From NCBI RefSeq assembly GCF_019599295.1, contig NZ_JAIEWN010000013.1:101705-134651 (forward strand): a stretch of 32,947 bases of DNA. The letters are read 5' to 3'. Shown one piece after another: positions 1,446 to 32,822 of the stretch. Made by a program: the position numbers and the translations under genes. The DNA comes from Oscillochloris sp. ZM17-4 (GTDB lineage Bacteria > Chloroflexota > Chloroflexia > Chloroflexales > Chloroflexaceae). Below the pieces are notes generated by a model that was given only the letters and a program-made list of their open reading frames with translations, searched no databases and was not told the DNA's origin. The stretch's first letter is position 1, and every line of letters begins with the position of its first letter.

Positions 1446-2372
1446 ATGCGGATCGGCTATGTCCGTGTTTCGACAGCTGATCAGAACCTGCATCTCCAAC
1501 ATGATGCGCTCCAGGCCGCAGGGTGCGAGCGCCTGTTTAGCGACACGGTGAGTGGCGCCCGCGTGGATCGTCCGGGGCTGACCGCAGCACTGAGCGCATG
1601 TCGGTCGGGCGACACCCTCGTGATGTGGAAGCTCGACCGGTTGGGGCGCTCACTCCCACACCTCGTGGAGATCGTGCAGGATGTATACGCCCGTGGTGTG
1701 GGTTTCACCAGCTTGCAGGAGCAGATGGATACGACGACCTCGGGCGGGAAGCTGATCTTCCACATCTTCGCATCACTGGCCACATTTGAGCGCGATCTGA
1801 TCCGGGAGCGAACCAACGCCGGGTTGGCGGCGGCGCGCGCGAGAGGCAGACATGGTGGCCGTCCGAAAGGCGTCGACCAGAAGAAGCAGAAAGCGGCGCT
1901 GGCCTATCGCGGCGGGCTACAGGCCGAGGAGCGCATGGCGCGAGCGGCGGCGGCGCTAGAGCGGGTCGGCCTGGGCCAGCGCATGGACCACAAGCCCCAG
2001 GAGCTCTCGGGCGGCCAGCAGCAGCGGGTGGCGATCGCCCGGGCGCTGGTGACGCAGCCGGCCCTGCTGCTGGCCGACGAGCCGACCGGCGCGCTGGACA
2101 CGCGCACCAGCGCCGAGGTGATGGAGCTGCTGACCGACCTGAACCAGCGCAGCGGGATGACCGTGGTGCTGGTGACCCACGAGCCGGACGTGGCCCGCTA
2201 CGCCCGGCGGCTGCTGGAGATCCGCGACGGCCAGCTCCAGCGCGATGTGCCGACCGCCGAGGCATGGGTCGATCAGAACCCGCACGCGCCGGGCGCGGCG
2301 GTGGGGCCGGTCGTGCGGGCGCGGCGGGTCGGCCGCCTGCCAGTGGCCCGCCAATGGAGGAAGAGCGCATGA
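1446..2372 (+). CDS. Serine recombinase fused to C-terminal half of a MacB-type ABC ATPase
   Basis: The first 150 or so residues are a resolvase/invertase catalytic domain: MRIGYVRVSTADQ with nucleophile Ser9, WKLDRLGRSLPHL, and FERDLIRERTNAGLAAARARGR. The helix-turn-helix tail that should follow is gone. From AYRGGLQAEERM (about residue 153) the protein becomes the back half of a MacB/LolD-type ATPase: signature LSGGQQQ (187-193), Walker B and D-loop DEPTGALD (211-218), and H-loop His245. Walker A and the Q-loop are missing, so it should not bind or hydrolyse ATP normally. A good ribosome site (GGAGGAGG) precedes ATG 1446, and the stop overlaps the permease start (ATGA at 2369). The missing front half of the same kind of ATPase lies at 21356-21617. 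Probably a chimeric pseudogene whose translation could still be coupled to the permease. Confidence 0.8.
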   Translation: MRIGYVRVSTADQNLHLQHDALQAAGCERLFSDTVSGARVDRPGLTAALSACRSGDTLVMWKLDRLGRSLPHLVEIVQDVYARGVGFTSLQEQMDTTTSGGKLIFHIFASLATFERDLIRERTNAGLAAARARGRHGGRPKGVDQKKQKAALAYRGGLQAEERMARAAAALERVGLGQRMDHKPQELSGGQQQRVAIARALVTQPALLLADEPTGALDTRTSAEVMELLTDLNQRSGMTVVLVTHEPDVARYARRLLEIRDGQLQRDVPTAEAWVDQNPHAPGAAVGPVVRARRVGRLPVARQWRKSA

Positions 2373-3721
2373 GCACGAACGAGCAGCTCCACATGCCAGC
2401 CATCCCGCCGACGCGCACGAATGTGGACGCCCCAGCTCCCACCGATACGGTAGGGGATGACCTCTGGGAGGGCGGGATCGGCTGGGTCGAGACCTTAGGC
2501 ATGTCGCTCGCCAGCCTGCGCGGCAACCCGCTACGGACGATCCTGACCGTGCTCGGCGTCTTGATCGGCGTGGCCTCGGTGGTGGCTCTGCTGGCGGTTG
2601 GGCGCGGCTCGCAGGCGGCGATCACCTCGGCGATTACCGCCAACGGGGCCAACCTGCTGACGGTGCGGCCGGGGGCCGCCAGCGCCGGCGGCGTGCGCGG
2701 CGCGGTCGGCTCAGGCGGGTCGCTGACCATGGCCGACGCGACCGCGCTGGAGAACCCGCAGGACGTGCCCGATGCGGCCTACGTCTCGCCAGAGTACACC
2801 GGCAACGCTCAGCTGGTGGCCGGCAGCAACAACCAGAACACCCGCATCACCGGGGCGACGCCGGTCTACCCCAGCCTGCACAACAATACCCTGGCCGAGG
2901 GCAGCTTCTTTGCCGACAGCGACGTGCAGGCTGCGGCGAACGTGGCGGTGCTGGGGGCGAACGTGTCCAGCGAGCTGTTCCCCAACGGCGACGCGCTAGG
3001 CCAGCAGGTGCGGATGAATGGCCAAAGCTTTCGGGTGATCGGGGTGCTGGCAAGCTCGGGCGGCACTGGCTTCGGCTCGATCGACGACGGGGTGATCGTG
3101 CCGCTGAGCACCGCCCAGCGCAAGCTCTTCGGCGCGCGGGCTGCGGTGGGCGGCTCGTTCAGCGTCTCAACCATCGTCGTCCAGGCGGCCAGCGCGGGCC
3201 AGATCGACGCGACCCTGAATGAGATCAACACCACCCTGCGCCAGCGCCAGAACCTACCGCTGGACGGCAGCGGCGACACCTTCAGCGTGATCAACCAGGC
3301 GGCCATCTTAGCCACGGTGACGCAGACAACGCAGATGCTGACGCTGTTTCTGGCGGCGATTGCGGCGATCTCGCTGCTGGTGGGCGGGATCGGGATCATG
3401 AACATTATGCTGGTGTCGGTGCGCGAGCGGACCCGTGAGATCGGGCTGAGCAAGGCGCTGGGCGCCCGCGAGGGCGACATCCTGCTGCAGTTCCTGTTCG
3501 AGTCGCTGGCCCTGAGCGGGGTGGGCGGGCTGGTGGGCCTGGCCCTGGGCGCGGCGATCGCCCTGGCGGTGGGGGCAAGCGGGGCCATGCAGGTCCAGCT
3601 CAGCCCCGACGCGGCCCTGCTGGCCCTCGGCTTCGCGCTGGCAGTGGGTCTGTTCTTCGGCATCGCCCCGGCCCGCAGCGCGGCCCGGCTCGACCCGATT
3701 GTTGCCCTGCGGTATGAGTAG
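2369..3721 (+). CDS. MacB-type ABC transporter permease
   Basis: A 450-residue membrane protein of the MacB/FtsX permease family. One N-terminal transmembrane helix follows the SLRGNPLRTILTVLGVLIGV motif (residues about 48-67). A large extracytoplasmic MacB core domain comes next, then three C-terminal helices that include LLVGGIGIMNIMLVSVRERT and FGIAPARSAARLDPIVALRYE, the usual family ending. ATG 2369 was chosen because it overlaps the upstream stop (ATGA) and is preceded by GGAGGAAGAG. Such permeases work with a cytoplasmic ATPase and a MacA-type adaptor to export peptides, lipids or drugs, or in mechanotransmission. Here the upstream ATPase lacks its Walker A half and the adaptor is missing, so the complex is probably non-functional unless another locus supplies these parts. 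Confidence 0.9.
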   Translation: MSTNEQLHMPAIPPTRTNVDAPAPTDTVGDDLWEGGIGWVETLGMSLASLRGNPLRTILTVLGVLIGVASVVALLAVGRGSQAAITSAITANGANLLTVRPGAASAGGVRGAVGSGGSLTMADATALENPQDVPDAAYVSPEYTGNAQLVAGSNNQNTRITGATPVYPSLHNNTLAEGSFFADSDVQAAANVAVLGANVSSELFPNGDALGQQVRMNGQSFRVIGVLASSGGTGFGSIDDGVIVPLSTAQRKLFGARAAVGGSFSVSTIVVQAASAGQIDATLNEINTTLRQRQNLPLDGSGDTFSVINQAAILATVTQTTQMLTLFLAAIAAISLLVGGIGIMNIMLVSVRERTREIGLSKALGAREGDILLQFLFESLALSGVGGLVGLALGAAIALAVGASGAMQVQLSPDAALLALGFALAVGLFFGIAPARSAARLDPIVALRYE

Positions 3722-3756
3722 GGGACAGGGGATAGGGGATAGGGGACAGGGGATGG
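3721..3756 (+). repeat. G-quadruplex-type tandem repeat
   Basis: Five runs of four G separated by ACA, ATA, ATA and ACA, then AT and GG, start at the last base of the permease stop codon. This matches the strict pattern for a four-tetrad G-quadruplex on the plus (coding/RNA) strand. It lies between the permease and the diguanylate cyclase, where it could slow transcription or act on the mRNA. Similar GGGGAYA strings are dispersed in some Chloroflexota genomes (from memory). Confidence 0.8.
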
Positions 3757-3787
3757 ACACATACGGCACGACCTATCCGAGGATGCC

Positions 3788-4630
3788 ATGTTCAATTGGC
3801 TGAACCGGCGGAGCCGGGGCCAGGGGATGGCCCTCAGCCTCGCCCTGATGGCCCTGATTGGGCTCGTCGATATGTGTACGAGCTATGAGTTCGATCTGAG
3901 CAACCTGTACATCGCCCCGATCATCCTGATCACCTGGACGCTGGGGCACCGCGCCGGCTGGGCGATGGCGATCAGTTGCGCTGGCCTGCGGGTCGCTACC
4001 GATGTGGTCACCCGCAGGCCGGTGAGCCATCTCGGGGTGTACCTGTGGTCGTTTGTCGCCAGTGGGCTGATCTTCACGATCCTCGTGGTGCTGATCACCC
4101 AGCTTCACGCCGCCCTCAGCGCCCAGTATCGGCAGGCCCGCCATGATCCGCTGACCGCCCTCTGCAACCGTGCCGGATTCTACGAGCTGGCCGAGCGCGA
4201 GCTGGCCCGCAGTCGGCGCAGCGGCGACCCGCTGACCGTCGTCTATCTCGACTGCGATGGCTTTAAGGCAGTCAATGATCGCTACGGGCATCACATGGGC
4301 GATCAGGTGCTGCGTGCGGTTGGGGCGACCCTCAATGACGCGCTGCGGCCGAGCGATGTGGCGGCCCGCATGGGCGGCGACGAGTTTGTGCTGCTGCTGT
4401 CAGGCGTGGCCCCGCCGACAAGCCAGCCGCTGGTTGAGCGGATCGCGGCGGCGCTCGATCAGGTCATGCAGTCCGGCGGCTGGCCGGTCTCGTTCAGCGT
4501 CGGCGCGGTGACCTACGCCGTTGCACCGGAGTCGGTCGACGGGCTGCTCGCCCCGGCCGACGCGCTGATGTACACGGTCAAGCACGCAGGCAAGAACCGG
4601 GTGGCCCACCAGGTGATCCCCGCAGCCTAG
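3788..4630 (+). CDS. Membrane-bound GGDEF diguanylate cyclase
   Basis: A 280-residue protein with about four hydrophobic segments in residues 13-105 and a C-terminal GGDEF domain. It should make cyclic di-GMP from two GTP at the inner face of the membrane. The domain opens with HDPLTALCNRAGF (119-131), the metal site lies in VVYLDCDGFKAVND, and the active-site loop GGDEF (196-200) is intact. The inhibitory I-site RPSD (187-190) sits five residues before it, so product inhibition is likely. No recognisable ligand-binding sensor domain is present besides the membrane part. ATG 3788 has GAGGA seven bases upstream. It follows the MacB-type permease after the G-rich repeat and converges with ackA. 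A decayed copy of its first codons, MFNWLDRP, occurs at 21630. Confidence 0.92.
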   Translation: MFNWLNRRSRGQGMALSLALMALIGLVDMCTSYEFDLSNLYIAPIILITWTLGHRAGWAMAISCAGLRVATDVVTRRPVSHLGVYLWSFVASGLIFTILVVLITQLHAALSAQYRQARHDPLTALCNRAGFYELAERELARSRRSGDPLTVVYLDCDGFKAVNDRYGHHMGDQVLRAVGATLNDALRPSDVAARMGGDEFVLLLSGVAPPTSQPLVERIAAALDQVMQSGGWPVSFSVGAVTYAVAPESVDGLLAPADALMYTVKHAGKNRVAHQVIPAA

Positions 4631-4644
4631 CCCAGGCGCCCGTG

Positions 4645-5835: not shown

Positions 5836-6289
5836 GGCTGGATCCTCCGTTTGCCATGGGCAAGCAGCAGCGCGAGGCTACACGAGGCCATAGGGAGTGT
5901 GCCGAAAGCGGGCGAGATTCACCCAAACACCCTACACCTATAGCACTGAGCAGCAGGCTTGAGCCACTGAGGCACTGAATCTGGTGGCTCGCTGCGCTCG
6001 CGCCTTCCTCATAACAGGCTCAATCTCTCTGCCCGCCGCTATAAGAGGTGTGTCGGCCTGACTTGCGCCGGCCAGCGAGAAGTCGCGCAAGGCGCATGGC
6101 AGAGTATCACGATTTTGGTGTCTGGAGAAGTGAGAAAGGTCGGATCACGATCTCTACTTTACCCCTGGCACTGCCAGGGACAGCTGCTCAGCGGGACGGC
6201 ACATACCTTGCTAGTACCGTTATGCGGAAATCCCTATCATCCACATGTACCGCAATGTGTGCCAATTATCGTATGGATACGCCTCTTCG
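5836..6289. other. Intergenic region between ackA and the pgm remnant, no gene seen
   Basis: This stretch separates two divergent units and has a lower G+C content than its neighbours in its second half. I see no convincing coding sequence; the open frames lack codon bias and recognisable domains. It contains the octamer ACTGAGGC twice near 5972-5986, which also builds the large palindrome at 20957, and a small inverted repeat CCTGGCA...TGCCAGG near 6164. Promoters for ackA and for the rightward unit must lie here or in the next element, but I cannot place them securely. Confidence 0.5.
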
Positions 6290-6397
6290 CTTTAGCGTTG
6301 CCTTAGCTGGCATGCACCCGTCTCTTCATCTCGCTTCTGTACACTGGCCTACGCGAACCTTGGGGCAGCAGTCGTGATGATACGCATGGAGTTGGCC
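6290..6397 (+). promoter_or_regulatory. Duplicated pgm leader/promoter region, copy 1
   Basis: From CTTTAGCGTTGCC onward this matches 23561-23668 with a constant offset of 17,271 bases and only scattered differences. The similarity begins sharply at 6290/23561 and continues into the pgm coding start. The shared block, including GCATGCACCCGTCTCTTCATC, therefore probably holds the pgm promoter and leader. GGAG six bases before ATG 6398 is the likely ribosome site. Confidence 0.6.
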
Positions 6398-6559
6398 ATG
6401 AACGTGAGCCCGTTGGCGGGGAAGCCGGCCGAAGAGTCGATGCTGGTGAACATTCCCAGGCTGGTCAGCGCCTATTATACGGAGACCCCTGTGCGCCGCC
6501 TGCTGGAGGAGGCGCAGGCAATCGTGAGCGCTGCGCTGGCAGATCAGGCGGGGGGATGA
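6398..6559 (+). pseudogene. pgm: Phosphoglucomutase remnant: first and last codons joined, middle deleted
   Basis: An open 53-codon frame joins the N-terminal 31 codons of phosphoglucomutase ([14 protein letters not shown] ... YYTETP) directly to its last 22 or so ([21 protein letters not shown]). The intact gene at 23669-25324 shows what is missing: about 1.5 kb including the catalytic serine and all substrate loops. The 5' part differs from the intact copy at only two positions, while the short 3' part has several silent changes, so this is a diverged paralogue and not a simple copy. The frame is preserved and the stop overlaps the next start (ATGA), so the stub could keep translational coupling to the phosphatase gene. 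No enzyme activity is possible. Confidence 0.93.
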
Positions 6560-7140
6560 TCATGCCCCTGAAGCTCTACCTGGTTCGGCACGGCGGCACC
6601 TCATGGTCGGTCTCTGGCCAGCACACCGGCCGCAGCGACATCCCGCTGACCCCCCAGGGCGAGGCCGAGGCGCGACGCCTCGCGCCGCGCCTTCAGGCGG
6701 TGGCGTTCACCCATGTGCTGACCAGCCCAAGCCAGCGGGCGCGCCGGACATGCGCGCTGGTGGGCCTGGAGCCGAAGGCCGCGATCGACCCCGATCTGTC
6801 CGAGTGGGCCTATGGCGACTATGAGGGCCGGACCTCGGCCGACATCCGGGCGGAGCGCCTGGGCTGGGATGTCTTCCGCGATGGCTGCCCGCACGGCGAG
6901 TCGCCGGCCCAGATCGCGGCCCGCGCAGATCGGCTGATCGCCCGCCTGCGCGCGCTGGACGGCAATGTCGCGCTGTTCTCGCACGGCCAGTTCGGCGCGG
7001 TGCTGGCCGCGCGCTGGATCGGGCTCACCGTGGTCGAAGCGCAGCACTTTCGGCTCGACACCGCATCGCTGAGCATCCTCGGCTACGACCCGCATCACCC
7101 CGAGGTGGCGGTCATTGCGATGTGGAACACCAGCGCGTAG
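6556..7140 (+). CDS. Histidine phosphatase family protein (phosphoglycerate mutase-like)
   Basis: A protein of about 194 residues of the histidine phosphatase superfamily. The phospho-acceptor motif LVRHGGTSW (His12) is at the N-terminus, followed by SPSQRARRTCAL, the catalytic acidic segment EWAYGDYEGRTSADI and the second catalytic histidine in LFSHGQFGAVLAARW. The family includes cofactor-dependent phosphoglycerate mutases and many sugar-phosphate phosphatases; sequence alone does not fix the substrate. The start may be ATG 6556, overlapping the pgm-remnant stop, or ATG 6562 (MPLKLYLVRHG). Its place between pgm and gnd suggests a role in sugar-phosphate turnover. In the paralogous segment at 25.3 kb this gene is absent. 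Confidence 0.88.
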   Translation: MIMPLKLYLVRHGGTSWSVSGQHTGRSDIPLTPQGEAEARRLAPRLQAVAFTHVLTSPSQRARRTCALVGLEPKAAIDPDLSEWAYGDYEGRTSADIRAERLGWDVFRDGCPHGESPAQIAARADRLIARLRALDGNVALFSHGQFGAVLAARWIGLTVVEAQHFRLDTASLSILGYDPHHPEVAVIAMWNTSA

Positions 7141-7199
7141 GCGCGTGTACCTTGAATGACGCTGAGCCCCCGCGTGGGCTTGGAAGGAGATAGATCGCT

Positions 7200-8231
7200 A
7201 TGCAACTTGGAATGATCGGCCTCGGGCGCATGGGCGCGGGTATGGTGCGCCGCCTGATGCGGGGCGGGCACACGTGCGTCGTGTATGACCGCGATCAAGC
7301 GGCGGCGGCCGAACTGGCCGGCGAAGGCGCGACCGCTGCCACGTCACTCGGCGATCTTGTCGCCACATTGGAGACGCCGCGGGTGATCTGGCTGATGATC
7401 CCCGCCGCTGCGGTCGATTCGGCGCTCCAGGATCTGCGCGGGCTGCTCCAGCCCGGCGACAGCGTGGTCGATGGCGGCAACTCGTACTACATCGACGACA
7501 TGCGCCGGGCGCAGGAGCTGGCAGCCAGCGGCATCACCTACATCGATGTGGGCACGAGCGGCGGCGTGTGGGGGCTGGAGCGCGGCTATTGCATGATGAT
7601 CGGCGGGCCGCAGGCCGCCGTGCAGCAGCTCGACCCCATCTTCAAAGCGCTGGCCCCCGGGGCGGGCACGATCGCGCGCACGCCTGGCCGCGCGCGGCTG
7701 GGCGGCACCGCCGAGGCTGGCTACCTCCACTGCGGGCCGAGCGGGGCCGGCCACTTCGTCAAGATGGTACATAACGGGATCGAGTACGGGATCATGGCGG
7801 CCTACGCCGAGGGGCTGAACATCCTCAAGCACGCCAACGTCGGCGCGCAGGGCCACGCCATCAGCGCCGAGATGACACCGCTGCGCCACCCGGAGGACTA
7901 CCAGTACGATCTGGACCTGGTCGACGTGGCTGAGGTCTGGCGGCGCGGCAGTGTGATCGCCTCGTGGCTGCTCGATCTGACCGCGACGGCGCTGGTGGCG
8001 GACCCACAGCTCGCCCAGTTTACGGGCCGGGTCTCGGACTCGGGCGAGGGGCGCTGGACGATCCTGGCGGCCATCGAGACGGGCGCGCCCGCGCCGGTGC
8101 TGAGCGCGGCGCTGGACCAGCGCTTCGCATCACGCGGCGAGGACGACTTCGCCGACAAGCTGCTCTCCGCGATGCGCTTCCAGTTGTCGAGATCGCCTGG
8201 TCGATCGTCGAGCCCATCCTCGACGACGTGA
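7200..8231 (+). CDS. gnd: 6-phosphogluconate dehydrogenase (decarboxylating, short type), altered C-terminus
   Basis: This enzyme converts 6-phosphogluconate to ribulose 5-phosphate and CO2 with NAD(P)+. The Rossmann motif MIGLGRMGAGMVRRLMRGG is at residues 4-22, DGGNSYYIDD and DVGTSGGVWGLERGYCMMIGG form the substrate site, and the catalytic lysine lies in GHFVKMVHNGIEYG. The length suits the short GndA/YqeC type. The native sequence ends near MRFQ (about 8184). Beyond it the frame runs into a zwf tail read out of frame ([15 protein letters not shown]) before stopping at 8231, so the last few native residues have been replaced. Activity may survive because only the extreme C-terminus is affected. 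AAGGAGA lies before ATG 7200. The same leader sequence appears at 25330 fused to zwf. Confidence 0.92.
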   Translation: MQLGMIGLGRMGAGMVRRLMRGGHTCVVYDRDQAAAAELAGEGATAATSLGDLVATLETPRVIWLMIPAAAVDSALQDLRGLLQPGDSVVDGGNSYYIDDMRRAQELAASGITYIDVGTSGGVWGLERGYCMMIGGPQAAVQQLDPIFKALAPGAGTIARTPGRARLGGTAEAGYLHCGPSGAGHFVKMVHNGIEYGIMAAYAEGLNILKHANVGAQGHAISAEMTPLRHPEDYQYDLDLVDVAEVWRRGSVIASWLLDLTATALVADPQLAQFTGRVSDSGEGRWTILAAIETGAPAPVLSAALDQRFASRGEDDFADKLLSAMRFQLSRSPGRSSSPSSTT

Positions 8232-8329
8232 CGCCGCTGTGCGACTATGCGCCGGGCACCTGGGGGCCGCAGGAGGCCGAGCGGCTCATCGCCGATGTGG
8301 GCGGCTGGCACCGGCCGGGCCGCAGATAG
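8185..8329 (+). pseudogene. zwf: zwf 3' remnant (glucose-6-phosphate dehydrogenase tail)
   Basis: In a different frame from gnd, the sequence encodes [32 protein letters not shown] and [13 protein letters not shown], the last 45 or so residues of glucose-6-phosphate dehydrogenase. It is almost identical to the tail at 26088-26232. The join to gnd lies in GTCGAGATCGCC at 8185. All of the catalytic protein is missing, so this is a deletion scar that shows gnd was once followed by zwf. Confidence 0.92.
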
Positions 8330-8370
8330 CCGCAGGGCGCGGGGCGCAGATAGAGGGGTCTGGCAGCCGA

Positions 8371-8417
8371 AACCCAGGATCTTCCTACTGTTGGCATCCA
8401 GCCGGCGGGGCTATGCT
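8371..8417 (+). promoter_or_regulatory. 47-bp promoter-like element, copy 1
   Basis: One of four elements of identical length in the window (others start at 22425, 26276 and 32321). Invariant blocks are AACCCAG at the left, CCT-n-CTGTTGG in the middle and GGGCTATGCT at the right end. CTGTTG and TATGCT are 18 bases apart (TTGGCA and TATGCT are 15 apart), which resembles a sigma-70-like promoter with an upstream operator box. It lies 62 bases before the stress-protein start at 8480. Promoter function is inferred from conservation and position. Confidence 0.7.
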
Positions 8418-20956: not shown

Positions 20957-21032
20957 GATCACTGAGGCACTGAGACACTGAGGCACTGAGCTTGTCCCCT
21001 CAGTGCCTCAGTGCCTCAGTGCCTCAGTGATC
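20957..21032. repeat. 34-bp-arm inverted repeat built of ACTGAGGC units
   Basis: Arms 20957-20990 and 20999-21032 match with one mismatch around CTTGTCCC. Each arm is itself a tandem run of the octamer ACTGAGGC (or its complement) flanked by GATC. The same octamer occurs near 5972-5986. It looks like an extragenic palindrome between two gene blocks. Confidence 0.88.
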
Positions 21033-21189
21033 AAACCCTGGGCCTTTCCACGCCCAACCCCAGGGAATCCCCTACTGCCGCCGACAGGGCCGCCCGGCTA
21101 GACTGCCCGTGTCAACCGGAATAGACGCGACGGTGCCGGCCACGCCGGCTAGCCCCTTGCGCTACTGGCCTATGAGAAGGAGGGTGCAG

Positions 21190-21358
21190 ATGAGCGTGAC
21201 ATCAACCGCGCCGGGCCGCCCTGTGCGTGCAGACTGGCAACCAGTGTCTGAAGGACGGCGACAGCCTGGTCATCCCGTCGGCCACCAGCAGTACGACGAG
21301 CGGCGGCAGCCAGCAGCGCAGCGGCTTCGGCGGCGGGCGGGGAGGGTTCCTGCCATGA
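21190..21358 (+). pseudogene. macA-like adaptor remnant: start joined to C-terminus
   Basis: A strong ribosome site (AAGGAGG) precedes ATG 21190, which encodes about 12 codons (MSVTSTAPGRPV). After these, in another frame, comes the C-terminus of a MacA-type periplasmic adaptor: [17 protein letters not shown], then a serine- and glycine-rich tail ending [11 protein letters not shown] and a stop at 21356-21358. The main body of the adaptor, normally 350-450 residues, is missing. The next start (ATG 21356) overlaps this stop, as in an intact macA-macB operon. Confidence 0.7.
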
Positions 21359-21617
21359 GCAGCATGATTCGCGCCCGCACCTGACCCGCACCTATGTGAC
21401 CGGCGACATCGAGGTCCACGCCCTGCGCGGGGTCTCCTTCGAGGTGGCGCGGGGCGAGTTCGTGGCGATTATGGGGCCGTCGGGATCGGGCAAGAGCACG
21501 CTGATGAACCTGATCGGCTGCCTGGACACGCCGACCTTAGGCAGCTACATCCTGGACGGGCTGGAGCTGCCGCTGCTGGCGGCGGTGCGCAACCGCAAGA
21601 TCGGCTTTGTCTTCCAA
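21356..21617 (+). pseudogene. MacB-type ABC ATPase, N-terminal half
   Basis: ATG 21356 begins MSSMIRAR; a one-base loss then shifts the frame, after which [20 protein letters not shown], the Walker A segment [21 protein letters not shown] and IGFVFQ are clear. The sequence stops being ATPase exactly at the Q-loop glutamine (21617). The LSGGQ and Walker B half is missing here, but a matching C-terminal half is fused to the recombinase at about 1.9 kb. A few residues before [10 protein letters not shown] are also missing. It is not functional. Confidence 0.88.
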
Positions 21618-21707
21618 CGGGAGGAGTCCATGTTCAACTGGCTTGACCGGCCGACGCGCTTCGGTGCCGCCCACGCCGCCGATGACGCCAGATGTGGCTG
21701 CGCCTGA
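21618..21707 (+). pseudogene. Diguanylate cyclase N-terminal remnant
   Basis: Directly after the ATPase fragment, GGGAGGAGTCC and ATG 21630 encode [12 protein letters not shown], closely similar to the start MFNWLNRRSRG of the diguanylate cyclase at 3788, including its leader. The frame then ends at 21707 without any GGDEF domain. It shows that the permease and most of the cyclase were deleted from this copy. Confidence 0.65.
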
Positions 21708-21779
21708 GCCAGCAGCGTAGATATGGCCGCCAGATACGCTGACGGCCAGCACGCTTGCACCTCTGAAAGGACAATATGT

Positions 21780-22397
21780 ATGAACACGCAGATGACCCAA
21801 CCGACCACAACGATGCAGATCCCGGAGCCGCCGATCGCGCGGTTGCTGTTCGCCGACACCCGGATCGCGCTCCTCTGGACGATCCTCCGACTCTACCTGG
21901 GCTACGAGTGGCTCACGGCCGGCTGGGAGAAGCTGACTAACCCGGCTGGAGTCTGGGTGGGAAAGGCCGCCGGCACGGCGATCAGCGGCTTCCTCAAGGG
22001 CGCGCTGGCGAAGACGGGCGGCAGCAACCCCGACGTCAGCGGCTGGTACGCCAGCTTCCTCCAGAACGTCGCACTGCCGAACGCGGTGTTCTTCTCCTAC
22101 CTTGTCACCTTCGGCGAGATCCTGGTCGGCATCGCCCTGATCCTGGGGCTGCTCACCGGCATTGCGGCCTTCTTCGGAGCCTTCATGAACGCTAGCTACC
22201 TGTTCGCCGGGACGGTCTCGGTCAACCCGCTGCTGCTGCTGCTCGCGATCGGCGTCATGCTGGCCTGGCGGGTCGCCGGCTACTGGGGCTTTGACCGCTG
22301 GGCGCTGCCGCTGCTCGGCGTGCCCGGCTTCCCCGGCACGCTCTTCCGGCCAAAGGTGGTCGCTACGAAGGCTGCGACACACGTCGCACGGAGGTGA
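21780..22397 (+). CDS. DoxX-like membrane protein
   Basis: A 205-residue protein with about four membrane helices. LLWTILRLYLGYEWLTAGWEKL is the family's first segment, followed by the soluble insert WYASFLQNVALPNAVFFSYL, VTFGEILVGIALILGLLTGI, FFGAFMNASYLFAG and LLLLLAIGVMLAWRVAGYWG. This resembles DoxX/thiosulfate-quinone-oxidoreductase small-subunit relatives, whose bacterial members are linked to redox stress or electron transfer to quinone. The exact role here is unknown. GAAAGGA precedes ATG 21780. It lies just upstream of the second group of stress and membrane genes; the 47-bp element follows it and does not precede it. Confidence 0.85.
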   Translation: MNTQMTQPTTTMQIPEPPIARLLFADTRIALLWTILRLYLGYEWLTAGWEKLTNPAGVWVGKAAGTAISGFLKGALAKTGGSNPDVSGWYASFLQNVALPNAVFFSYLVTFGEILVGIALILGLLTGIAAFFGAFMNASYLFAGTVSVNPLLLLLAIGVMLAWRVAGYWGFDRWALPLLGVPGFPGTLFRPKVVATKAATHVARR

Positions 22398-22402
22398 CGA
22401 AA

Positions 22403-22471
22403 AACCCAGGCTCTGGCCGCCCGGAACCCAGCATATTCCTACTGTTGGGGCCCGGCCCTGAGGGCTATGCT
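22403..22471 (+). promoter_or_regulatory. 47-bp promoter-like element, copy 3, with extra upstream AACCCAG box
   Basis: The core element is 22425-22471, with AACCCAG, CCTACTGTTGG and GGGCTATGCT in the invariant positions. A second AACCCAGG box begins at 22403, exactly 22 bases (about two helical turns) before the first. The same arrangement occurs at 32299/32321. This suggests binding of a regulator to two sites on one face of the helix upstream of a promoter. It precedes the small membrane protein at 22572 by 100 bases. Confidence 0.7.
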
Positions 22472-22571
22472 TAGGACAGATATTCGACACAGCCCGGCGC
22501 TGAGGGGCGAGAGCGATCACCGCTCGCTCATGCCCTTCTCGCCGCCGGGGCAAAAGATGAAAGGTACGACG

Positions 22572-22826
22572 ATGAGCCATACCACGATTGAGGCACACGT
22601 GACGACCGGGCCAGCGGCTGGCGCTGGGACATGGATTGGGGCGATCTGGGGCTTGCTGAGCCTGGCCACCTGCCTCGCGGCCCCGGCCTTCTGGCCGGGC
22701 CTCGTGGCCGTCGCTGGTATGGTCGCGCTGCTCGGCGCACTGGAGGGCGCGGCCTTCGGCGCCGCTGCGGACAGCGCGCTGGCGCCCCAGCGCGCGCCGT
22801 TGTCTCACCGGAGCCACGGGCTGTAG
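22572..22826 (+). CDS. 84-residue membrane protein, copy 1
   Basis: After a short polar start (MSHTTIEAHVTTG) two hydrophobic segments follow: WIGAIWGLLSLATCLAAPAF and LVAVAGMVALLGALEGAAFG. The polar tail ends in RAPLSHRSHGL. ATG 22572 is supported by AAAGG upstream and by conservation in the second copy at 32466, which differs in six residues. No family is recognised. Both copies are preceded by the 47-bp element and followed by a PRC-barrel gene or remnant, so the two genes form a conserved pair. Confidence 0.75.
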   Translation: MSHTTIEAHVTTGPAAGAGTWIGAIWGLLSLATCLAAPAFWPGLVAVAGMVALLGALEGAAFGAAADSALAPQRAPLSHRSHGL

Positions 22827-22882
22827 CGAAGCGCGCTAGGCCGCAGCGGCCGGCCCTGCTCAAAACGAAAGAGGGAACCACG

Positions 22883-23503
22883 GTGGATATTCGCATCGAC
22901 ACAAACGTGGAGTGTACGGATGGCCCCGGCGGCCAGGTGACGAGCATCATCCTGAACCCGGTCACCCGGCGGATCACCGATATGGTGGTGCGCGAGCCGG
23001 GCTTGGTGGGGAACCAGGTGCTCGTGCCCACCACGATGATCACGGAGCAGACGTCCGACACGCTGCGCCTGAGCGTGACGCGCGGCGCGCTGGCCGATCT
23101 GCCGAGCTTTATGATGACCCAGTACCACCAGCCCGGCGACCGCCTGCTCGACACGACCCCCTGGATCACCTATCCGCCCGGCGGCATCTACCTGTCGCCT
23201 TATATGCCGATCGCGGTCGATCACTATGTGGACACCTACGAGAACATCCCGGCCAGCGAGCTGGCGATGCGTCGCGGCGACGTGGTCGCCGCGACCGACG
23301 GACGGGTGGGCCGGATCGAGGGCTTTGTGGTCGACCCGCAGGGCGAGCAGATCAGCCACCTGCTGCTCCGCGAGGGCCACCTCTGGGGCACCAAAGACGT
23401 GAGCATCCCCGTCGCGAGCATCAAGGACATCCAGGCGGGCGTGGTCCATCTGAAGCTGAGGAAGGACGAGGTCGCGGCGCTGCCGACCATTACGGTGCAT
23501 TGA
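22883..23503 (+). CDS. Double PRC-barrel domain protein
   Basis: A 206-residue soluble protein with two PRC-barrel-like repeats: IRIDTNVECTDGPGGQVTS to PTTMITEQTSDTLRL, and SELAMRRGDVVAATDGRVGR to KDVSIPVASIKDI. A linker with PPGGIYLSPYMP lies between them. PRC-barrels occur in photosynthetic reaction centre H subunits, RimM and many stress-related proteins, and usually mediate protein contacts. GTG 22883 was chosen because GAGGGA stands six bases upstream and the domain starts at once. It follows the 84-residue membrane protein, probably in the same transcript. A truncated version of its leader and middle occurs at 32754-32822. Confidence 0.8.
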   Translation: MDIRIDTNVECTDGPGGQVTSIILNPVTRRITDMVVREPGLVGNQVLVPTTMITEQTSDTLRLSVTRGALADLPSFMMTQYHQPGDRLLDTTPWITYPPGGIYLSPYMPIAVDHYVDTYENIPASELAMRRGDVVAATDGRVGRIEGFVVDPQGEQISHLLLREGHLWGTKDVSIPVASIKDIQAGVVHLKLRKDEVAALPTITVH

Positions 23504-23560: not shown

Positions 23561-23668
23561 CTTTAGCGTTGCCTTAGCTGGCATGCACCCGTCTCTTCAT
23601 CTCGCTGCTGTACCCTGGCGTACACAGACCTTGGCGCAGCAGTCGCGATGATACGCATGGAGTTGGCC
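23561..23668 (+). promoter_or_regulatory. Duplicated pgm leader/promoter region, copy 2
   Basis: This matches 6290-6397 with few differences, starting at CTTTAGCGTTGCC. GGAG lies six bases before ATG 23669. Conservation of about 108 bases of non-coding DNA ahead of both pgm copies points to a promoter and leader, though no clear -35/-10 pair can be named. Confidence 0.6.
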
Positions 23669-25324
23669 ATGAACGTGAGCCCGTTGGCGGGGAAGCCTGC
23701 CGAAGAGTCGATGCTGGTGAATATTCCCAGGCTGGTCAGCGCCTATTATACGGAGACCCCAGACCCATCGGTCGCTGGGCAGCGGGTTGCCTTCGGCACC
23801 TCCGGGCATCGTGGCTCGGCCTTCGATGTATCCTTCAACGAATGGCACATTCTGGCGATCTGCCAGGCCATCTGCCGCTACCGGGAGCAGCAGCAGATCA
23901 CTGGCCCGCTGTTCCTGGGCATGGACACCCACGCCCTCTCGGTGCCGGCGCTGTCTAGCGCGCTGGAGGTGCTGGCCGCCAACGGGGTCGAGGTGATGCT
24001 GGCTGAGGGCGACGAGTACACGCCCACGCCGGCTATCTCGCTGGCTATCCTGAGCTACAACCGCGGGCGCACGACCGGGCTGGCCGACGGGATCGTGATC
24101 ACACCCTCACATAACCCGCCCCACGACGGCGGCCTGAAGTATAACCCGCCCCACGGCGGCCCGGCCGAGACGCGCATCACCAGCGGGATCGAGGCGCAGG
24201 CAAACGCGCTGCTGGAGCGCGGGCTGCAGGGCGTGAAGCGCATACCGCTGGCGCGCGCCCTGGCCGCCCCCACGACCCATCGCTACGATTATCTCAACGC
24301 CTATGTCAGTCAGCTGGCGCAGGTTGTGGATATGGACGCGATCCGCGCCGCGAAGATCAGCCTGGGGGTAGATCCGCTGGGCGGGGCCGGGGTCCACTAC
24401 TGGGGGGCGATCGCCGAGCGCTACGGCCTGGACCTCACGGCCGTCAACACCGCGGTCGATCCGACCTTCCGCTTTATGACGGTCGACTGGGACGGCCAGA
24501 TCCGCATGGACCCGTCCTCGCCGTATGCGATGCAGCGGCTGATCGCGATCAAGGATCGCTTCGAGATCGCCTTCGCCTGCGACACCGACCATGATCGGCA
24601 CGGGATCGTCACCCGCAGCAGCGGGCTGCTGCCGCCCAACCACTACCTGTCCAGCGCGATCTTCTACCTGTTTCAGCACCGGCCGCAGTGGCCCGCGCGG
24701 GCGGCGGTCGGCAAAACCGTGGTGAGCAGCCAGATGCTCGATCGCGTCGCCGCCAAGCTTGGCCGCACGCTCTACGAGGTGCCGGTTGGCTTCAAGTGGT
24801 TCGTCGCTGGTCTGCGCGACGGCTCGCTCGGCTTCGGCGGCGAGGAGAGCGCGGGGGCATCCTTTGCGCGGCTGGATGGCAGCGTCTGGACGACGGACAA
24901 GGACGGGATGATCCTGGCCCTGCTGGCGGCGGAGATCACGGCCAAGGCTGGCCGCGACCCCGGCGAGATCTACCTCGGCCTCACGCACGAGCTGGGCGAG
25001 CCGGTATATGACCGGGTTGAGGCTCCGGCCACCCCAGCGCAGAAGGAGCTGCTGCTGCGCCTCTCGCCCCAGCAGGTGGGCAGCACCGAGCTGGCGGGCG
25101 AGAAGATCACGCGTGTGCTGACCCAGGCGCCCGGCAATGGGGAGCCCATCGGCGGGCTGAAGGTAGAGGCCGCCAGCGGCTGGTTCGCGGCCCGCCCGTC
25201 GGGGACAGAGGCCATCTACAAGATCTATGCGGAGAGCTTCCGGGGGGCCGATCATCTGCGCCGCCTGCTGGAGGAGGCGCAGGCAATCGTGAGCGCCGCG
25301 CTGGCCGATCAGGCAGGTGGGTGA
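23669..25324 (+). CDS. pgm: Phosphoglucomutase (alpha-D-glucose specific)
   Basis: A protein of 551 residues, close to E. coli Pgm in length and order. It interconverts glucose 1-phosphate and glucose 6-phosphate. Motifs are [22 protein letters not shown], the phosphoserine loop [11 protein letters not shown] (Ser147), DPLGGAG, the metal site [10 protein letters not shown], the sugar loop [12 protein letters not shown], and the phosphate-binding [10 protein letters not shown] 23669 was chosen over the upstream in-frame ATGs because GGAG lies six bases before it and the N-terminus [12 protein letters not shown] aligns with E. coli. The stop overlaps GTG 25321 of the truncated zwf. It links glgP to the pentose phosphate pathway. 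A deleted paralogue lies at 6398. Confidence 0.96.
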
Positions 25325-26232
25325 TCGCCCGCGTGGGCTTGGAAGGAGAGAGATCGCTCTTCGCCTTTCTGGGCAAGAGCGCGGTGCAGAACCTGCTCTT
25401 CTTCCGCTTCGCCAACATCTTCCTGGAGCCGATCTGGAACCGCCACTATGTCGAGAGCGTGCAGATCACCATGGCCGAAGCGTTCGGCGTGCAGGGCCGG
25501 GGGAAGCTCTACGACGAGCTGGGCGCGATCCGCGATGTGGTGCAGAACCACCTGCTGCAGGTCGTGGCCTATGTGGCGATGGAGCCGCCCATCCTGGCCT
25601 ACCCCGAGGGCATCCGCGACGAGACCGCCAAGGTCTTCCGCGCCATCGAGCCGCTCGACCCGCAGAACCTGGTGCGCGGGCAGGTCGCCGGATACCGCGG
25701 CGAGCCGGGCGTGCGCCCGGACTCGCGCGTTGAGACCTACGCCGCCGTGCGCCTGCACATCGACTCGTGGCGCTGGGCCGGCGTGCCCTTCTCCATCCGC
25801 GCCGGCAAGTGTCTGCCGGTGACGACGACCGAGGTGCAGGTGACGCTCAAGCGCCCGCCGCTCGCCGGGCTGGCGCCCGGTCAGGGCAACCGCGTGCGCT
25901 TCCGCCTCACCCCGCCGATCACGCTGGGGGTCAACACCCGCATGAAGGCTGCGGGCGACGCCATGGCCGCACGCGAGCAAGAGCTGACCGCCGCGTATCA
26001 GCCCGGCCCGAGCATGCTCGGCGACTACGAGCGGCTGCTCACCGACGCCATGCGGGGCGAGGCGATGCTGTTCGCGCGTGAGGATGCGGTCGAGATCGCC
26101 TGGTCGATCGTCGAGCCCATCCTCGACGACGTGACGCCGCTGTGCGACTATGCGCCGGGCACGTGGGGGCCGCAGGAGGCCGAGCGGCTCATCGCCGATG
26201 TGGGCGGCTGGCACCGGCCGGGCTCCTACTAG
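25321..26232 (+). pseudogene. zwf: Glucose-6-phosphate dehydrogenase lacking its NADP-binding domain
   Basis: From [17 protein letters not shown] (about 25363) to the end the sequence is a good match to the C-terminal two-thirds of Zwf: [32 protein letters not shown], the [17 protein letters not shown] region and [10 protein letters not shown]. The first 180 or so residues are missing, including the GASGDLTK-type Rossmann loop, the EKP motif and most of the RIDHYLGK active site. In their place stands the gnd leader (CGCGTGGGCTTGGAAGGAGA), so this is a deletion from the gnd ribosome site into zwf. A GTG at 25321 overlapping the pgm stop could start a 303-residue protein. It cannot be a normal dehydrogenase; whether it is translated is unknown. 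Confidence 0.92.
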
Positions 26233-26275
26233 GCATCGTCGGCGCTCATGCGCACCCCATGGTCTGGGCTTCTAA

Positions 26276-26322
26276 AACCCAGGATCTTCCTACTGTTGGC
26301 ATCCCGTCGGCGGGGCTATGCT
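26276..26322 (+). promoter_or_regulatory. 47-bp promoter-like element, copy 2
   Basis: This is very close to the element at 8371, with only two differences, and shares AACCCAG, CTGTTGGCA and GGGCTATGCT with the other copies. It lies 62 bases before the second stress protein at 26385 and is the best candidate promoter for the run 26385-32280 (stress protein, phosphoketolase, SpoIIAA-like protein, ATPase). No full AACCCAG box is found 22 bases upstream. Confidence 0.7.
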
Positions 26323-26384
26323 AGGTGCAGACCTGGAGATGCCGAAACTGGCAATAGCGCGTAAAGACGCAGAAGGATACGGTG

Positions 26385-26891
26385 ATGAACCAGAGCACGA
26401 TAGGAACATACGCGACGCTCGACGCGGCCGAGCAGGCCGTGCATACGCTCGGCGAGGGCGGCTTCCCGATCCGCCAGGTGTCGATCCTGTCCCAGGACAT
26501 GCAGAGCGAGCGGGTAGTCCACGGCTATATCACTGCGGGCGATGTGGCGAAGCAGGGCGCGGGCGTGGGCGCGTGGACCGGCGGCCTGTTTGGCATCCTG
26601 ATGGGCGCCGCCTTCATCTGGGTGCCGGGCTTCGGGCCGCTGCTGGTGGCGGGGGCATTTGCCGGCGTGCTGCTGGGCGGCATCGAGGGCGCGGCGGTCG
26701 GCGCCGCTACGGGCGGAGCGCTGGGCGCCCTGGCCGGCTGGGGCGTCTCGAAGCAGCATATCCTCAAATACGAGGAGCAGCTCAAGGCAGGCAAGTACCT
26801 GGTCATCGCCCACGGGAGCGATGCGGAGGTCGCGCAGGCCCGCACGCTGCTGGGCCAGACCGACGCGGCCGCGCTGGACGTCCACGCCTAG
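26385..26891 (+). CDS. YflT-like general stress protein, copy 2
   Basis: 168 residues, with the same architecture as the protein at 8480: an N-terminal YflT-like part, a glycine-rich membrane hairpin in the middle, and a C-terminal alpha/beta part ending ARTLLGQTDAAALDVHA. ATG 26385 has AGAAGGA nine bases upstream and is conserved in copy 1. The proteins differ at about twelve positions, mostly conservative, and the genes carry many silent differences, so both have been kept under selection for some time. It lies immediately upstream of the phosphoketolase gene. Confidence 0.82.
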   Translation: MNQSTIGTYATLDAAEQAVHTLGEGGFPIRQVSILSQDMQSERVVHGYITAGDVAKQGAGVGAWTGGLFGILMGAAFIWVPGFGPLLVAGAFAGVLLGGIEGAAVGAATGGALGALAGWGVSKQHILKYEEQLKAGKYLVIAHGSDAEVAQARTLLGQTDAAALDVHA

Positions 26892-26907
26892 CGTATATGC
26901 GCCGATG

Positions 26908-26946
26908 GCGCTGTATGGGCCGGTAGTGCTATCGGCCCATTAGCGC
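26908..26946 (+). promoter_or_regulatory. Stem-loop in the phosphoketolase leader
   Basis: GCGCT plus ATGGGCCG (26908-26922) pairs with CGGCCCAT plus AGCGC (26933-26946), interrupted by a small internal loop. It lies between the stress protein stop and the xfp start and has no T-run after it. It may separate expression of the two genes by partial termination or RNA processing. Confidence 0.55.
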
Positions 26947-26961
26947 ATCACAGGGGTCATC

Positions 26962-29343
26962 ATGAGCAAACCAGTGGAATCCGAACCGCTCTCCCCGGAC
27001 ATGATCCGCAAGATCGACGCCTACTGGCGCGCCGCCAACTACCTGTCGGTCGGCCAGATCTACCTGTACGACAACCCGCTGCTGCAGCGGCCGCTGGCGC
27101 TCGCGGATGTGAAGCGCATGCTGCTGGGCCACTGGGGCACCACCCCGGGGCAAAACTTCATCTACGCGCACCTGAACCGGGCGATCAAAAAGTACGACCT
27201 CGACATGATCTACGTCTCCGGCCCCGGCCACGGCGGCCCGGCCGTGGTGAGCAACACCTACCTGGAGGGCACGTATAGCGAGATCTACCCCAACATCAGC
27301 CAGGATGCGGCCGGGCTGCGCAAGCTCTTCCTCCAGTTCTCGTTCCCCGGCGGCATCCCCAGCCACGCCTCGCCCGAGTGCCCCGGCTCGATCCACGAGG
27401 GCGGCGAGCTGGGCTATTCGCTCAGCCACTCCTTTGGGGCGGTCTTCGACAACCCCGGCCTGATCGTCGCCTGCGTGGTCGGCGACGGCGAGGCGGAGAC
27501 CGGCCCGCTGGCCACGGCCTGGCACTCCAACAAGTTCCTCAACCCGGCCAGCGATGGCGCGGTGCTGCCGATCTTGCACCTCAACGGCTATAAGATCTCC
27601 AACCCGACCGTGCTCGCCCGCATCGAGCGTGAGGAGCTTGAGCAGCTGCTGCGCGGCTACGGCTGGACGCCCTACGTCGTCGAGGGCCACGAGCCCGCGC
27701 TGATGCACCAGGCCATGGCCGCGACGCTCGACACCGTCGTTGAGGAGATCAAGCGGATCCAGGAGAACGCCCGCGTCCACGGCGACCTCACCCGCCCGCG
27801 CTGGCCGATGATTGTGCTTCGCTCGCCCAAGGGCTGGACGGGGCCGCAGATGGTCGATGGCATCCAGATCGAGGGCACCTTCCACGCACATCAGGTGCCG
27901 CTGCTGGTCGATGCCGAACACCCCGCGCATCTCCAGCAGCTAGAGGCGTGGCTGCGCAGCTACCGGCCCGAGGAGCTGTTCGACGCACAGGGTCGGCTCA
28001 TGCCAGAATTGGCTGAGCTGGCCCCGAAGGGCGAGCGGCGCATGGGTGCGAACCCCCACGCCAACGGCGGCATACTGCTGCGCGACCTGCGCATGCCGGA
28101 CTTCCGCGACTACGCGGAGGATGTGCCCGCGCCCGGCGCGCCCGGCATCGGCGACACCCATGTGCTGGGGCGGTTTCTGCGCGACGTGACGAAGCTCAAT
28201 GCGGCGCAGCAGAACTTCCGCATCTTCGGCCCAGACGAGACCCTCTCGAATGGGCTGGAGGCGGTCTTTGCGGCCACCGAGCGCCAGTGGGAGGCCGCGA
28301 CCGTGCCGGGCGACGAGCTGCTCGCTCCCGCCGGGCGCGTGATCGAGATGCTCAGCGAGCACCAGTGTGAGGGCTGGCTCGAAGGCTACCTGCTCACCGG
28401 GCGGCACGGCCTGTTCAACTGCTACGAGGCGTTCATCCACATCGTCGACTCGATGTTCAACCAGCACGCCAAGTGGCTCAAGGTCACCGCCGACCTGCCC
28501 TGGCGGCGCAAGATCGCCTCGCTCAACTACCTGCTGGCCTCGCACGTCTGGAGGCAGGATCACAACGGCTTCACCCACCAGGACCCGGGCTTCATTGATC
28601 ACGTTGTGAACAAGAAGGCCGAGATCGTGCGCGTGTACCTGCCGCCCGATGCGAACTGCCTGCTCTCGGTGGTGGATCACTGTCTGCGCAGCCGCCACTA
28701 CGTCAACGTGGTGGTGGCCGGCAAACACCCGGCCCCCCAGTGGCTCACCATGGACGCTGCGGTCAAGCACTGTAGCGAGGGCATCGGCATCTGGCCGTGG
28801 GCCAGCAGCGACCAGGGCGCCGCGCCCGATGTGGTGATGGCCTGCTGCGGCGATGTGCCCACCCTGGAGACCCTGGCCGCCGTCTCGATCCTGCGCGAGC
28901 ACCTGCCCGACCTGCGGATCAGAGTGGTCAACGTGGTCGATCTTATGAAGCTAGAGCCGCAGACCGAGCACCCCCACGGCCTGAGCGACCTGGAGTTCGA
29001 CGAGCTCTTCACCAAAGACAGGCCGGTGATCTTCGCCTTCCACGCCTACCCCTGGCTGATCCACCGGCTCACCTACCGCCGCACCAACCACGACAACATC
29101 CACGTCCGCGGCTACAAGGAAGAGGGCACCATCACCACGCCCTTCGACATGACCGTGCTGAACGAGCTGGACCGCTTCCACCTGGTGATGGACGTGATCG
29201 ACCGCCTGCCGCAGACCGGCGACAGGGGCATCTACCTCAAGCAGCAGCTCAAAGACAAGCTGATTGAACACAAGCAGTATATCAACAGGTACGGCCAGGA
29301 TATGCCGGAGATCCGGGACTGGACGTGGAGCAATCGCGCATGA
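26962..29343 (+). CDS. xfp: Phosphoketolase (xylulose 5-phosphate / fructose 6-phosphate)
   Basis: 793 residues, the usual family length. This thiamine-diphosphate enzyme splits xylulose 5-phosphate (and often fructose 6-phosphate) with phosphate into acetyl phosphate and glyceraldehyde 3-phosphate (or erythrose 4-phosphate). Family motifs are [38 protein letters not shown] (about 87-105), [20 protein letters not shown], the thiamine-diphosphate motif [14 protein letters not shown] (174-187) and [11 protein letters not shown]. The C-terminal [12 protein letters not shown] and the [15 protein letters not shown] region are also intact. Sequence does not settle single versus dual substrate use. 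It follows the stress protein after a stem-loop and precedes the SpoIIAA-like and ATPase genes. With ackA at 4645 it yields ATP. Confidence 0.96.
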
Positions 29344-29381
29344 GCTGATCATGCGTATGTGCTTCTCAGAAGGAGACCACA

Positions 29382-32298: not shown

Positions 32299-32367
32299 AA
32301 CCCAGGCGTTTCCCCGTGCGAACCCAGTATTTCCCTGCTGTTGGCACCCGGCCATGCGGGCTATGCT
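32299..32367 (+). promoter_or_regulatory. 47-bp promoter-like element, copy 4, with extra upstream AACCCAG box
   Basis: The core is 32321-32367 with AACCCAG, CCTGCTGTTGG and GGGCTATGCT. A second AACCCAGG begins at 32299, 22 bases upstream, as in copy 3. It lies 98 bases before the small membrane protein at 32466. Confidence 0.7.
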
Positions 32368-32465
32368 TCGGGCAGCTCTTCGATACGGCCCAGCGCTGAA
32401 GGGCGCGCGCGCGCCACTCTTGCATGCCCTTCTCGCCGCCGGGGCAAAAGATGAAAGGTACGACA

Positions 32466-32720
32466 ATGAGCCATACCACCATTGAGGCACATGTGACGAC
32501 CGGGCCAGTGACTAGCGCTGGGACATGGATTGGGGCGATCTGGGGCTTGCTGAGCCTGGCCATCTGCCTCGCAGCCCCGGCCTTCTGGCCGGCCCTCGTG
32601 GCCGTGGCCGTTATGGTCGCGCTGCTCGGCGCGTTGGAGGGCGCGGCGTTCGGCGCCGCTGCGGACAGCGCGCTGGCACCCCAGCGCGCGCCGTTGTCTC
32701 ACCGGAGCCACGGGCTGTAG
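32466..32720 (+). CDS. 84-residue membrane protein, copy 2
   Basis: Identical in length to the protein at 22572 and different in six residues, mostly in the first half (for instance PVTSAG versus PAAGAG). Two hydrophobic segments, the GALEGAAFGAAADSALAPQR segment and the tail APLSHRSHGL are unchanged. AAAGG precedes ATG 32466. It has no recognised family. The conserved tail and upstream element suggest that both copies are functional. The following PRC-barrel gene is reduced to a short remnant here. Confidence 0.75.
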   Translation: MSHTTIEAHVTTGPVTSAGTWIGAIWGLLSLAICLAAPAFWPALVAVAVMVALLGALEGAAFGAAADSALAPQRAPLSHRSHGL

Positions 32721-32753
32721 GGGCTCGCGCTAGGCCGCGCGACCGACCCGGTT

Positions 32754-32822
32754 CAAAACGAAAGAAGGAACCAAGGGCGGCATCTACCTGTCGCCCTATA
32801 TGCCGATGGCGGTCGATTACAG
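32754..32822 (+). pseudogene. PRC-barrel gene remnant: leader fused to an internal piece
   Basis: TTCAAAACGAAAGAAGGAAC at 32754 corresponds to the leader and ribosome site of the PRC-barrel gene at 22862. The start codon and first 99 or so codons are missing, and the sequence continues directly with GGIYLSPYMPMAVDY, equivalent to residues about 100-114 of the intact protein, before similarity ends near 32822. It cannot encode the protein. Confidence 0.85.

Follow-up and report, generated by a model that had tools for sequence, protein, structure and literature searches.

Positions 21189-21660 of the window probably represent what is left of an additional macA-macB-permease-GGDEF operon copy, which would have been eroded by several large deletions and would have lost its genes stepwise. 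The window is the whole stretch of DNA that was analyzed, 32,947 nucleotides in length (G000:C35:101705-134651); it is the final 33 kb of a contig, ending at the contig end, in a 6.69-Mb draft genome (G000) of 182 contigs. A sequence-only reading had described this region as an operon copy compressed by several internal deletions, a description borne out by the ordered scraps with missing interiors that we recovered. From left to right, the region holds a macA-like start, then the macA tail with a MacB-type ATPase up to the Q-loop, and then a GGDEF leader with its first codons. What was observed directly is that ordered scraps with missing interiors are present and that both copies have the GGDEF start. 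The scraps are as follows.

21189..21221, plus strand: macA start scrap with ATG at 21190 and about 10 codons, compared with the macA starts of G003:C436 and G001:C303
21224..21616, plus strand: last ~45 codons of macA and the N-terminal half of macB, with about 87 codons' worth of MacB-type ATPase (ATG at 21355)
21621..21654, plus strand: GGDEF leader and first codons with ATG at 21630, 28 of 34 bases identical to 3779-3812
21647..21660, plus strand: probable GGDEF interior scrap, near codon 255, overlapping the GGDEF leader scrap by a CCGGC repeat

For the macA start scrap, 29 of 33 bases (21189-21221) were identical to the macA start of G003:C436 and 21 of 23 bases to that of G001:C303, and in neither comparison was any of 300 shuffles as good; these shuffles used two-base blocks and are not strictly dinucleotide preserving. 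Five parents were tried, and the matches to the other three were weaker, with 4, 23 and 45 of 300 shuffles as good for G005:C24, C2 and C161, respectively; in C161, the top match fell outside the macA start. Upstream of the scrap, at 21040-21185, homology to six stretches with macA or its upstream region did not exceed that of shuffles. A left end near the macA ribosome site, preceded by sequence with homology not above shuffles, is what one would see if operon mRNA had been reverse transcribed with skips and then reinserted. We consider such RNA-mediated copying extremely improbable, however, since ordinary deletions suffice and conservation of the intergenic DNA upstream of macA relative to a paralogue is not expected in any case.

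The second piece (21224-21616), which was judged by its E value and not by shuffles, aligned to the intact paralogue G000:C2 (L034) at E about 1e-96, with identity in 333 of 424 columns; relatives in G005, G004, G001 and G003 aligned to it at 73-75%. When the macB part was compared alone, 235 of 262 bases were identical to C2; relative to that gene, it has one base and 15 bases fewer, and its reading frames are disrupted. The macB scrap contains the Walker A motif, covers positions 1-72 of the 137 positions of Pfam ABC_tran and ends exactly at the Q-loop, which is codon 93 of the C2 paralogue; the Q-loop is where the match ends in all five cases, C2 and the relatives in the four other genomes. 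The GGDEF leader scrap scored 38 against 3779-3812, compared to a maximum of 27 in 500 block shuffles, and a degenerate pattern of the GGDEF start, allowing up to 2 mismatches, occurred in the six genus genomes only on this contig, at two places. The interior scrap at 21647-21660 is a 14-base exact match to 4553-4566 that none of 200 shuffles equalled, in one of the twelve such comparisons made. This suggests that a GGDEF deletion ended near codon 255, the interior having been removed at the CCGGC repeat. The shuffles and the alignment to the C2 paralogue thus confirmed the proposed series of macA scraps, macB N-terminal half to the Q-loop and GGDEF start.

The absence of the permease from the compressed stretch was likewise confirmed: 21617-21800 contained no strong permease match, and the shuffle comparisons gave no scrap above chance, with 107 of 200 shuffles as good for 21646-21723 and 116 of 200 for 21655-21723. 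Nothing clear was found in 21655-21723. A 13-base match of this piece to the PRC-barrel gene, for which at best 5 of 200 shuffles were as good, was set aside. Rfam, at gathering thresholds, gave zero matches in the window.

Further operon material lies at 1.9-4.6 kb, where the C-terminal half of macB, the permease and the GGDEF gene are adjacent.

1446..2372, plus strand: in-frame fusion of a serine recombinase N-terminal domain to the MacB C-terminal half (Pfam Resolvase 2.2e-46, ABC_tran 3.2e-14)
2264..3721, plus strand: MacB-type permease with MacB_PCD and FtsX domains, whose longest frame begins upstream, inside macB
3788..4630, plus strand: intact GGDEF gene (Pfam GGDEF 6.2e-39)

Positions 1897-3724 are 83% identical to G000:C2. 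The sequence-only reading had taken 1.9-4.6 kb as the surviving rest of the same operon. The matching material is indeed there. Since each of the two places has its own GGDEF start, however, two operon copies have to be assumed. We also considered a single operon split in two by rearrangement, with the N-terminal half at 21.4 kb and the C-terminal half at 1.9 kb; in the C2 gene, the matches to these two pieces lie only ~50 bp apart. The duplication of the GGDEF start argues against a simple split, and this explanation was set aside. We thus read 1.9-4.6 kb as a separate copy, in which a recombinase fusion follows on a 5' truncation, and 21.2 kb as the gutted copy, and we take the duplication to cover at least the GGDEF start part. 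The four-gene order macA-macB-permease-GGDEF is one that we infer from the 1.9-4.6 kb copy together with the C2 paralogue. Next to the recombinase-MacB fusion are two minus-strand pieces of ISL3-type transposase, one at 434-790 (E 3e-8) and one at 691-1311 (E 0.0024, under the Pfam cut-off).

Alignment to intact macAB-GGDEF operons of related genomes had been suggested as a check, and none was found in six genus or 41 family genomes. Protein and DNA searches of the other genomes gave no intact four-gene operon. With the GGDEF protein as the query, the top nonself match over most of its length in the six genus genomes had 38% identity (G000:C100, query positions 16-272), identities of up to 46% being confined to the GGDEF domain; in contigs of the wider set of genomes, the best 80 of 594 loci had 36-37% over most of the length and up to 46% over the domain. 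In DNA searches with 3000-6300 in the 41 family genomes, the window itself was the only place where a match over the GGDEF gene reached E <=1e-60. Among plasmid records, 142 had a match and 0 covered 80% of the query, the 20 matches listed being ABC ATPase or unannotated places. No GGDEF gene was seen by eye immediately 3' of the permease in C2. The GGDEF gene is thus intact only in the 1.9-4.6 kb copy of the window, and the macAB part has intact relatives elsewhere.

We infer the deletions, their order and the stepwise loss of genes as follows. The operon would first have been duplicated. In one copy, a deletion inside macA would have kept the macA start and the tail that carries the macB start, another deletion would have begun at the macB Q-loop and ended shortly ahead of the GGDEF ribosome site, and the GGDEF interior would have been lost afterwards. 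This makes at least 3 deletions of roughly 0.7-2 kb each, with little or no homology at the joins, which may have arisen by polymerase slippage or Ku-independent end joining. The genes would have been lost singly, each fixed deletion sparing the ribosome site of a following gene that was still in use, and translation starts would thus have been left as scraps that mark the order of loss. If so, the leader scraps are there because each gene was lost while the next one was still needed.

Similar damage was observed in the surroundings. The remnant sits in a repeatedly duplicated and rearranged accessory cluster with genes for acetate kinase, phosphoglucomutase, gnd, zwf, phosphoketolase and stress proteins, in which the following features were compared.

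23648..25324, plus strand: intact pgm with four PGM_PMM domains
6290..6561, plus strand: pgm remnant with both gene ends kept and ~1.5 kb of the middle missing, matching 23561-23760 and 25257-25326
25322..25358, plus strand: gnd leader scrap of 37 bp between two deletions, 91.9% identical to 7163-7199
8186..8320, plus strand: zwf tail joined to a near-complete gnd, whose frame continues to 8231
32299..32820, plus strand: partial copy of 22403-23224, with a small gene and the PRC-gene leader followed by a 45-bp PRC-barrel interior scrap

The join in the pgm remnant is common to the sister species G005, where it lies on C54 within a 2046-bp stretch of 93.6% identity; unlike it, the gnd/zwf joins are absent from G005, in which gnd and zwf are both open and adjacent. 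Relative to G005, the first copy in G000 has a gnd-zwf deletion with the zwf tail remaining, and 8186-8320 matches the zwf end in the other copy (26089-26223) at 99% identity. The second copy has lost the histidine phosphatase gene and also the region from the gnd start to mid-zwf. The gnd leader scrap left there ends at the ATG and is a second case of an initiation region lying between two deletions; by the same scheme as at 21.2 kb, the histidine phosphatase gene would have been lost first and gnd later. The stepwise part of our reading draws on these two leader scraps between joins; against it stand the PRC scrap of 45 bp and the GGDEF scrap of 14 bases, which are gene interior. In 32299-32820, the PRC-barrel gene has lost ~300 bp of its beginning, and the ack gene of G005 is itself reduced. 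On another contig, G005 also carries a fusion in which the first ~127 codons of macA continue in frame into the permease end, the joining point being a 14-bp direct repeat; the fusion has 292 codons, and macB is gone (G005:C73; L045 8237-9115). Compared to G000:C161, in which the macA, macB and permease frames are open, ~3.25 kb are missing, by arithmetic from positions; this fusion might yield a protein product.

The presence of short direct repeats at each join had been proposed as a further check. They were mostly absent, with 0-5 bp of homology by eye, the exception being the 14-bp repeat of the G005:C73 fusion; most joins were read by eye on printed alignments. In the remnant, the join of macB to the GGDEF leader had 0 bp, with ~4 unexplained bases, and the GGDEF interior join had 5 bp (CCGGC). 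In the cluster, homology was 0 bp with a 2-base filler for pgm, 0 for gnd and the zwf tail, 0-3 for pgm and the gnd leader, 0-1 with ~6 unexplained bases for the gnd leader and zwf, 2 for PRC, ~4 for ack and 0-1 for a 160-bp deletion in G005. Ku (PF02735) was found in 0 of the 6 genus genomes, and the same search found it in B. subtilis among 14 control genomes. Ku-dependent end joining was therefore set aside, Ku having been found in none of the 6 genus genomes. Short or no join homology in the absence of Ku fits slippage or Ku-independent end joining, and the combination of 0-5 bp with no Ku detected points to one of these routes here.

The same joins could also have been produced in one complex event, in which a fork or repair polymerase skipped forward repeatedly along an intact operon (serial replication slippage or template switching). 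The scraps are indeed in the same orientation and in order, with 0-5 bp of join homology by eye, several of them are short with joins on both sides (gnd leader, 37 bp; GGDEF leader, ~34 bp; PRC, 45 bp), and there is no sign that the deletions were separated by long periods of neutral decay. Nevertheless, the missing excess of point changes is equally expected from fast serial deletion when few bases survive, and the deletions in different cluster genes are separate, as the pgm join occurs in G005 too and the gnd/zwf joins do not. We thus regard a single event as unlikely and favor several deletions, one after another. We think it less likely still that reads from different copies or strains were put together in the assembly, even though the genome is a draft of 182 contigs, the window lies at a contig end and related copies at 6, 8, 22, 23, 26 and 32 kb could mislead an assembler. 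The scraps are 10-21% diverged from the nearest relatives and from every copy found, so they were not put together by an assembler from sequences that the searched genomes still contain at other places, and sharing 0-5 bp at the joins is unlike assembler chimaeras. Moreover, the pgm join is also present in the separate sister genome, in the 2046-bp stretch mentioned above.

With respect to timing, the macB scrap showed 27 differences from C2 in 262 bases, of which 5, 6 and 16 fell at codon positions 1, 2 and 3. In the macB C-terminal half of the 1.9-kb copy, the corresponding counts were 9, 15 and 39 of 462 bases. At positions 1 and 2 together, this gives 11 of 175 for the scrap versus 24 of 308 for the C-terminal half, in a comparison of different gene parts. 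The counts were made against C2 only of the five parents, as the other four did not yield the start motif. The differences of the scrap are still skewed to third codon positions, and an excess of the kind expected under relaxed selection is not visible, so inactivation would have been late and the deletions quick; the inactivation of the macB scrap looks recent. With so few surviving bases, fast successive deletions and one complex event are not told apart by timing.

A function of the remnant is improbable. It has no complete macA, keeping only about the first 10 and the last 45 codons; its ATPase has Walker A only, the signature and Walker B missing; and the permease with MacB_PCD and FtsX domains is in the 1.9-4.6 kb copy, not in the remnant. 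One open frame runs through it.

21396..21707, plus strand: 103-codon open frame of macB N-terminal half, GGDEF scrap and unrelated sequence

This frame has a Walker A motif and coding-like codon use, and an intact DoxX-family gene follows immediately downstream. It might thus encode a small MacB-like protein, or the leader scraps might act as promoter or ribosome sites for the DoxX-family gene. Either form of retained function appears very unlikely to us. The frame stops short in the ATPase domain, of which it covers Pfam positions 1-72 of 137 and thus only the first half; it is not in phase with the macB start at 21355, and its coding signal is inherited from macB. Furthermore, among the matches listed from 31 genomes, none but the window passes the Q-loop into a GGDEF scrap. 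The 103-codon frame is thus probably not a working protein.

The sequence-only reading had held that several deletions sparing the gene ends are hard to explain by random decay. We compared a collinear control, 400 kb of G000:C1 (with 1,700 N) and 395.5 kb of G005:C1, a single contig pair with 66 HSPs of at least 1.5 kb (209.7 kb in total). From HSPs of >=60 bp and >=75% identity, 15 candidate large indels of 150-8000 bp were obtained, gains and losses pooled, and genes were called with a simple codon-score script. Half of the indel endpoints (15 of 30) lay within 40 nt of a gene terminus, 9 at a stop and 6 at a start, compared to 9-10% of random positions. Sparing of gene ends is thus ordinary here, which weakens this part of the claim and leaves it only partly supported; most simply, fixed indels respect gene ends because neighboring genes are in use. 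Both short scraps at 21.2 kb (macA and GGDEF) lie on start codons, for which uniform placement gives a chance of ~4e-4, a post hoc figure. In the control, 1 of the 15 indels clearly truncates a gene as in the window, leaving 129 bp of a 999-bp gene; another falls within a gene call of 210 bp and cuts it, and in three cases genes differ internally by 172-376 bp but are still open. The density of gutted genes in the window therefore looks unusual, although window and control were scored by differing rules. Of five nameable short scraps, three are initiation regions (macA, GGDEF and gnd) and two are not (PRC, 45 bp; GGDEF, 14 bp). A genus-wide tendency for initiation regions to be left as 30-45 bp fossils that record the order of operon loss, through constraint from the downstream gene or template skipping, is a speculative extension that we doubt. 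If the pattern held across many strains, such scraps could serve to read the order of gene loss.

The source of the scraps is an operon of the MacA-MacB type of ABC transport system with separate ATPase and permease genes (e.g., G000:C2); the remnant has the same gene order but has lost the permease, and little of its ATPase and adaptor genes is left. Serial replication slippage, FoSTeS and MMBIR yield ordered short templated pieces with microhomology at the joins. The ordered short pieces of the remnant resemble such products, although a single event is unlikely for it. In their available parts, the reports found on these processes (e.g., PMC3597517 and PMC2583991) deal with human, primate or fly DNA. 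The remnant is most likely a deletion-eroded pseudo-operon and not a new kind of system. It resembles bacterial pseudogenes lost under deletional bias, as described for Salmonella (Kuo and Ochman 2010, PMC2916853), in its deletional loss, its little acceleration of point changes and its mostly strain-specific distribution. That study reports a single inactivating change in 346 of 378 pseudogenes and more than one in 32, with little accelerated change in young ones, whereas the remnant copy carries at least 3 large deletions as well as small ones. Several large deletions in one young remnant would thus lie at the rare end of the range described there. A narrow term search of the literature for operon remnants with internal deletions and tandem duplication gave no match and carries little weight. 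Taken alone, the region is an added example and establishes no new principle; as such, it is a clear and checkable case of operon erosion in which several scraps are legible and five other genes are damaged (pgm, gnd, zwf, the PRC-barrel gene and, in G005, ack).

Some further features of the cluster were observed. Positions 6140-8185 and 25365-29351 are 93.6-96% identical between G000 and G005 (L040), and the arrangement in G005 combines the left portion of one of the two G000 copies with the right portion of its counterpart. On contig C1, 53 of the 66 long HSPs between the two genomes had 80-90% identity, and the higher identity of the cluster suggests its recent exchange. A promoter-like motif, CCTnCTGTTGG-N(12-20)-GGGCTATGCT, occurs four times in the window (8370-8417, 22424-22471, 26275-26322 and 32320-32367), upstream of the YflT-type stress genes (8429 and 26382), of the small gene beside the PRC-barrel gene and of the copy of this small gene. 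Exact matches to the motif numbered 4 in G000, all in the window, and 1 in G005, in the same cluster, compared to 0 for a reversed control pattern. Finally, 20957-21032 contains a 34-bp inverted repeat, 97% complementary and made of 'cactgaggcactgag'-like units, and similar sequences occur at many places in G000 and G005.
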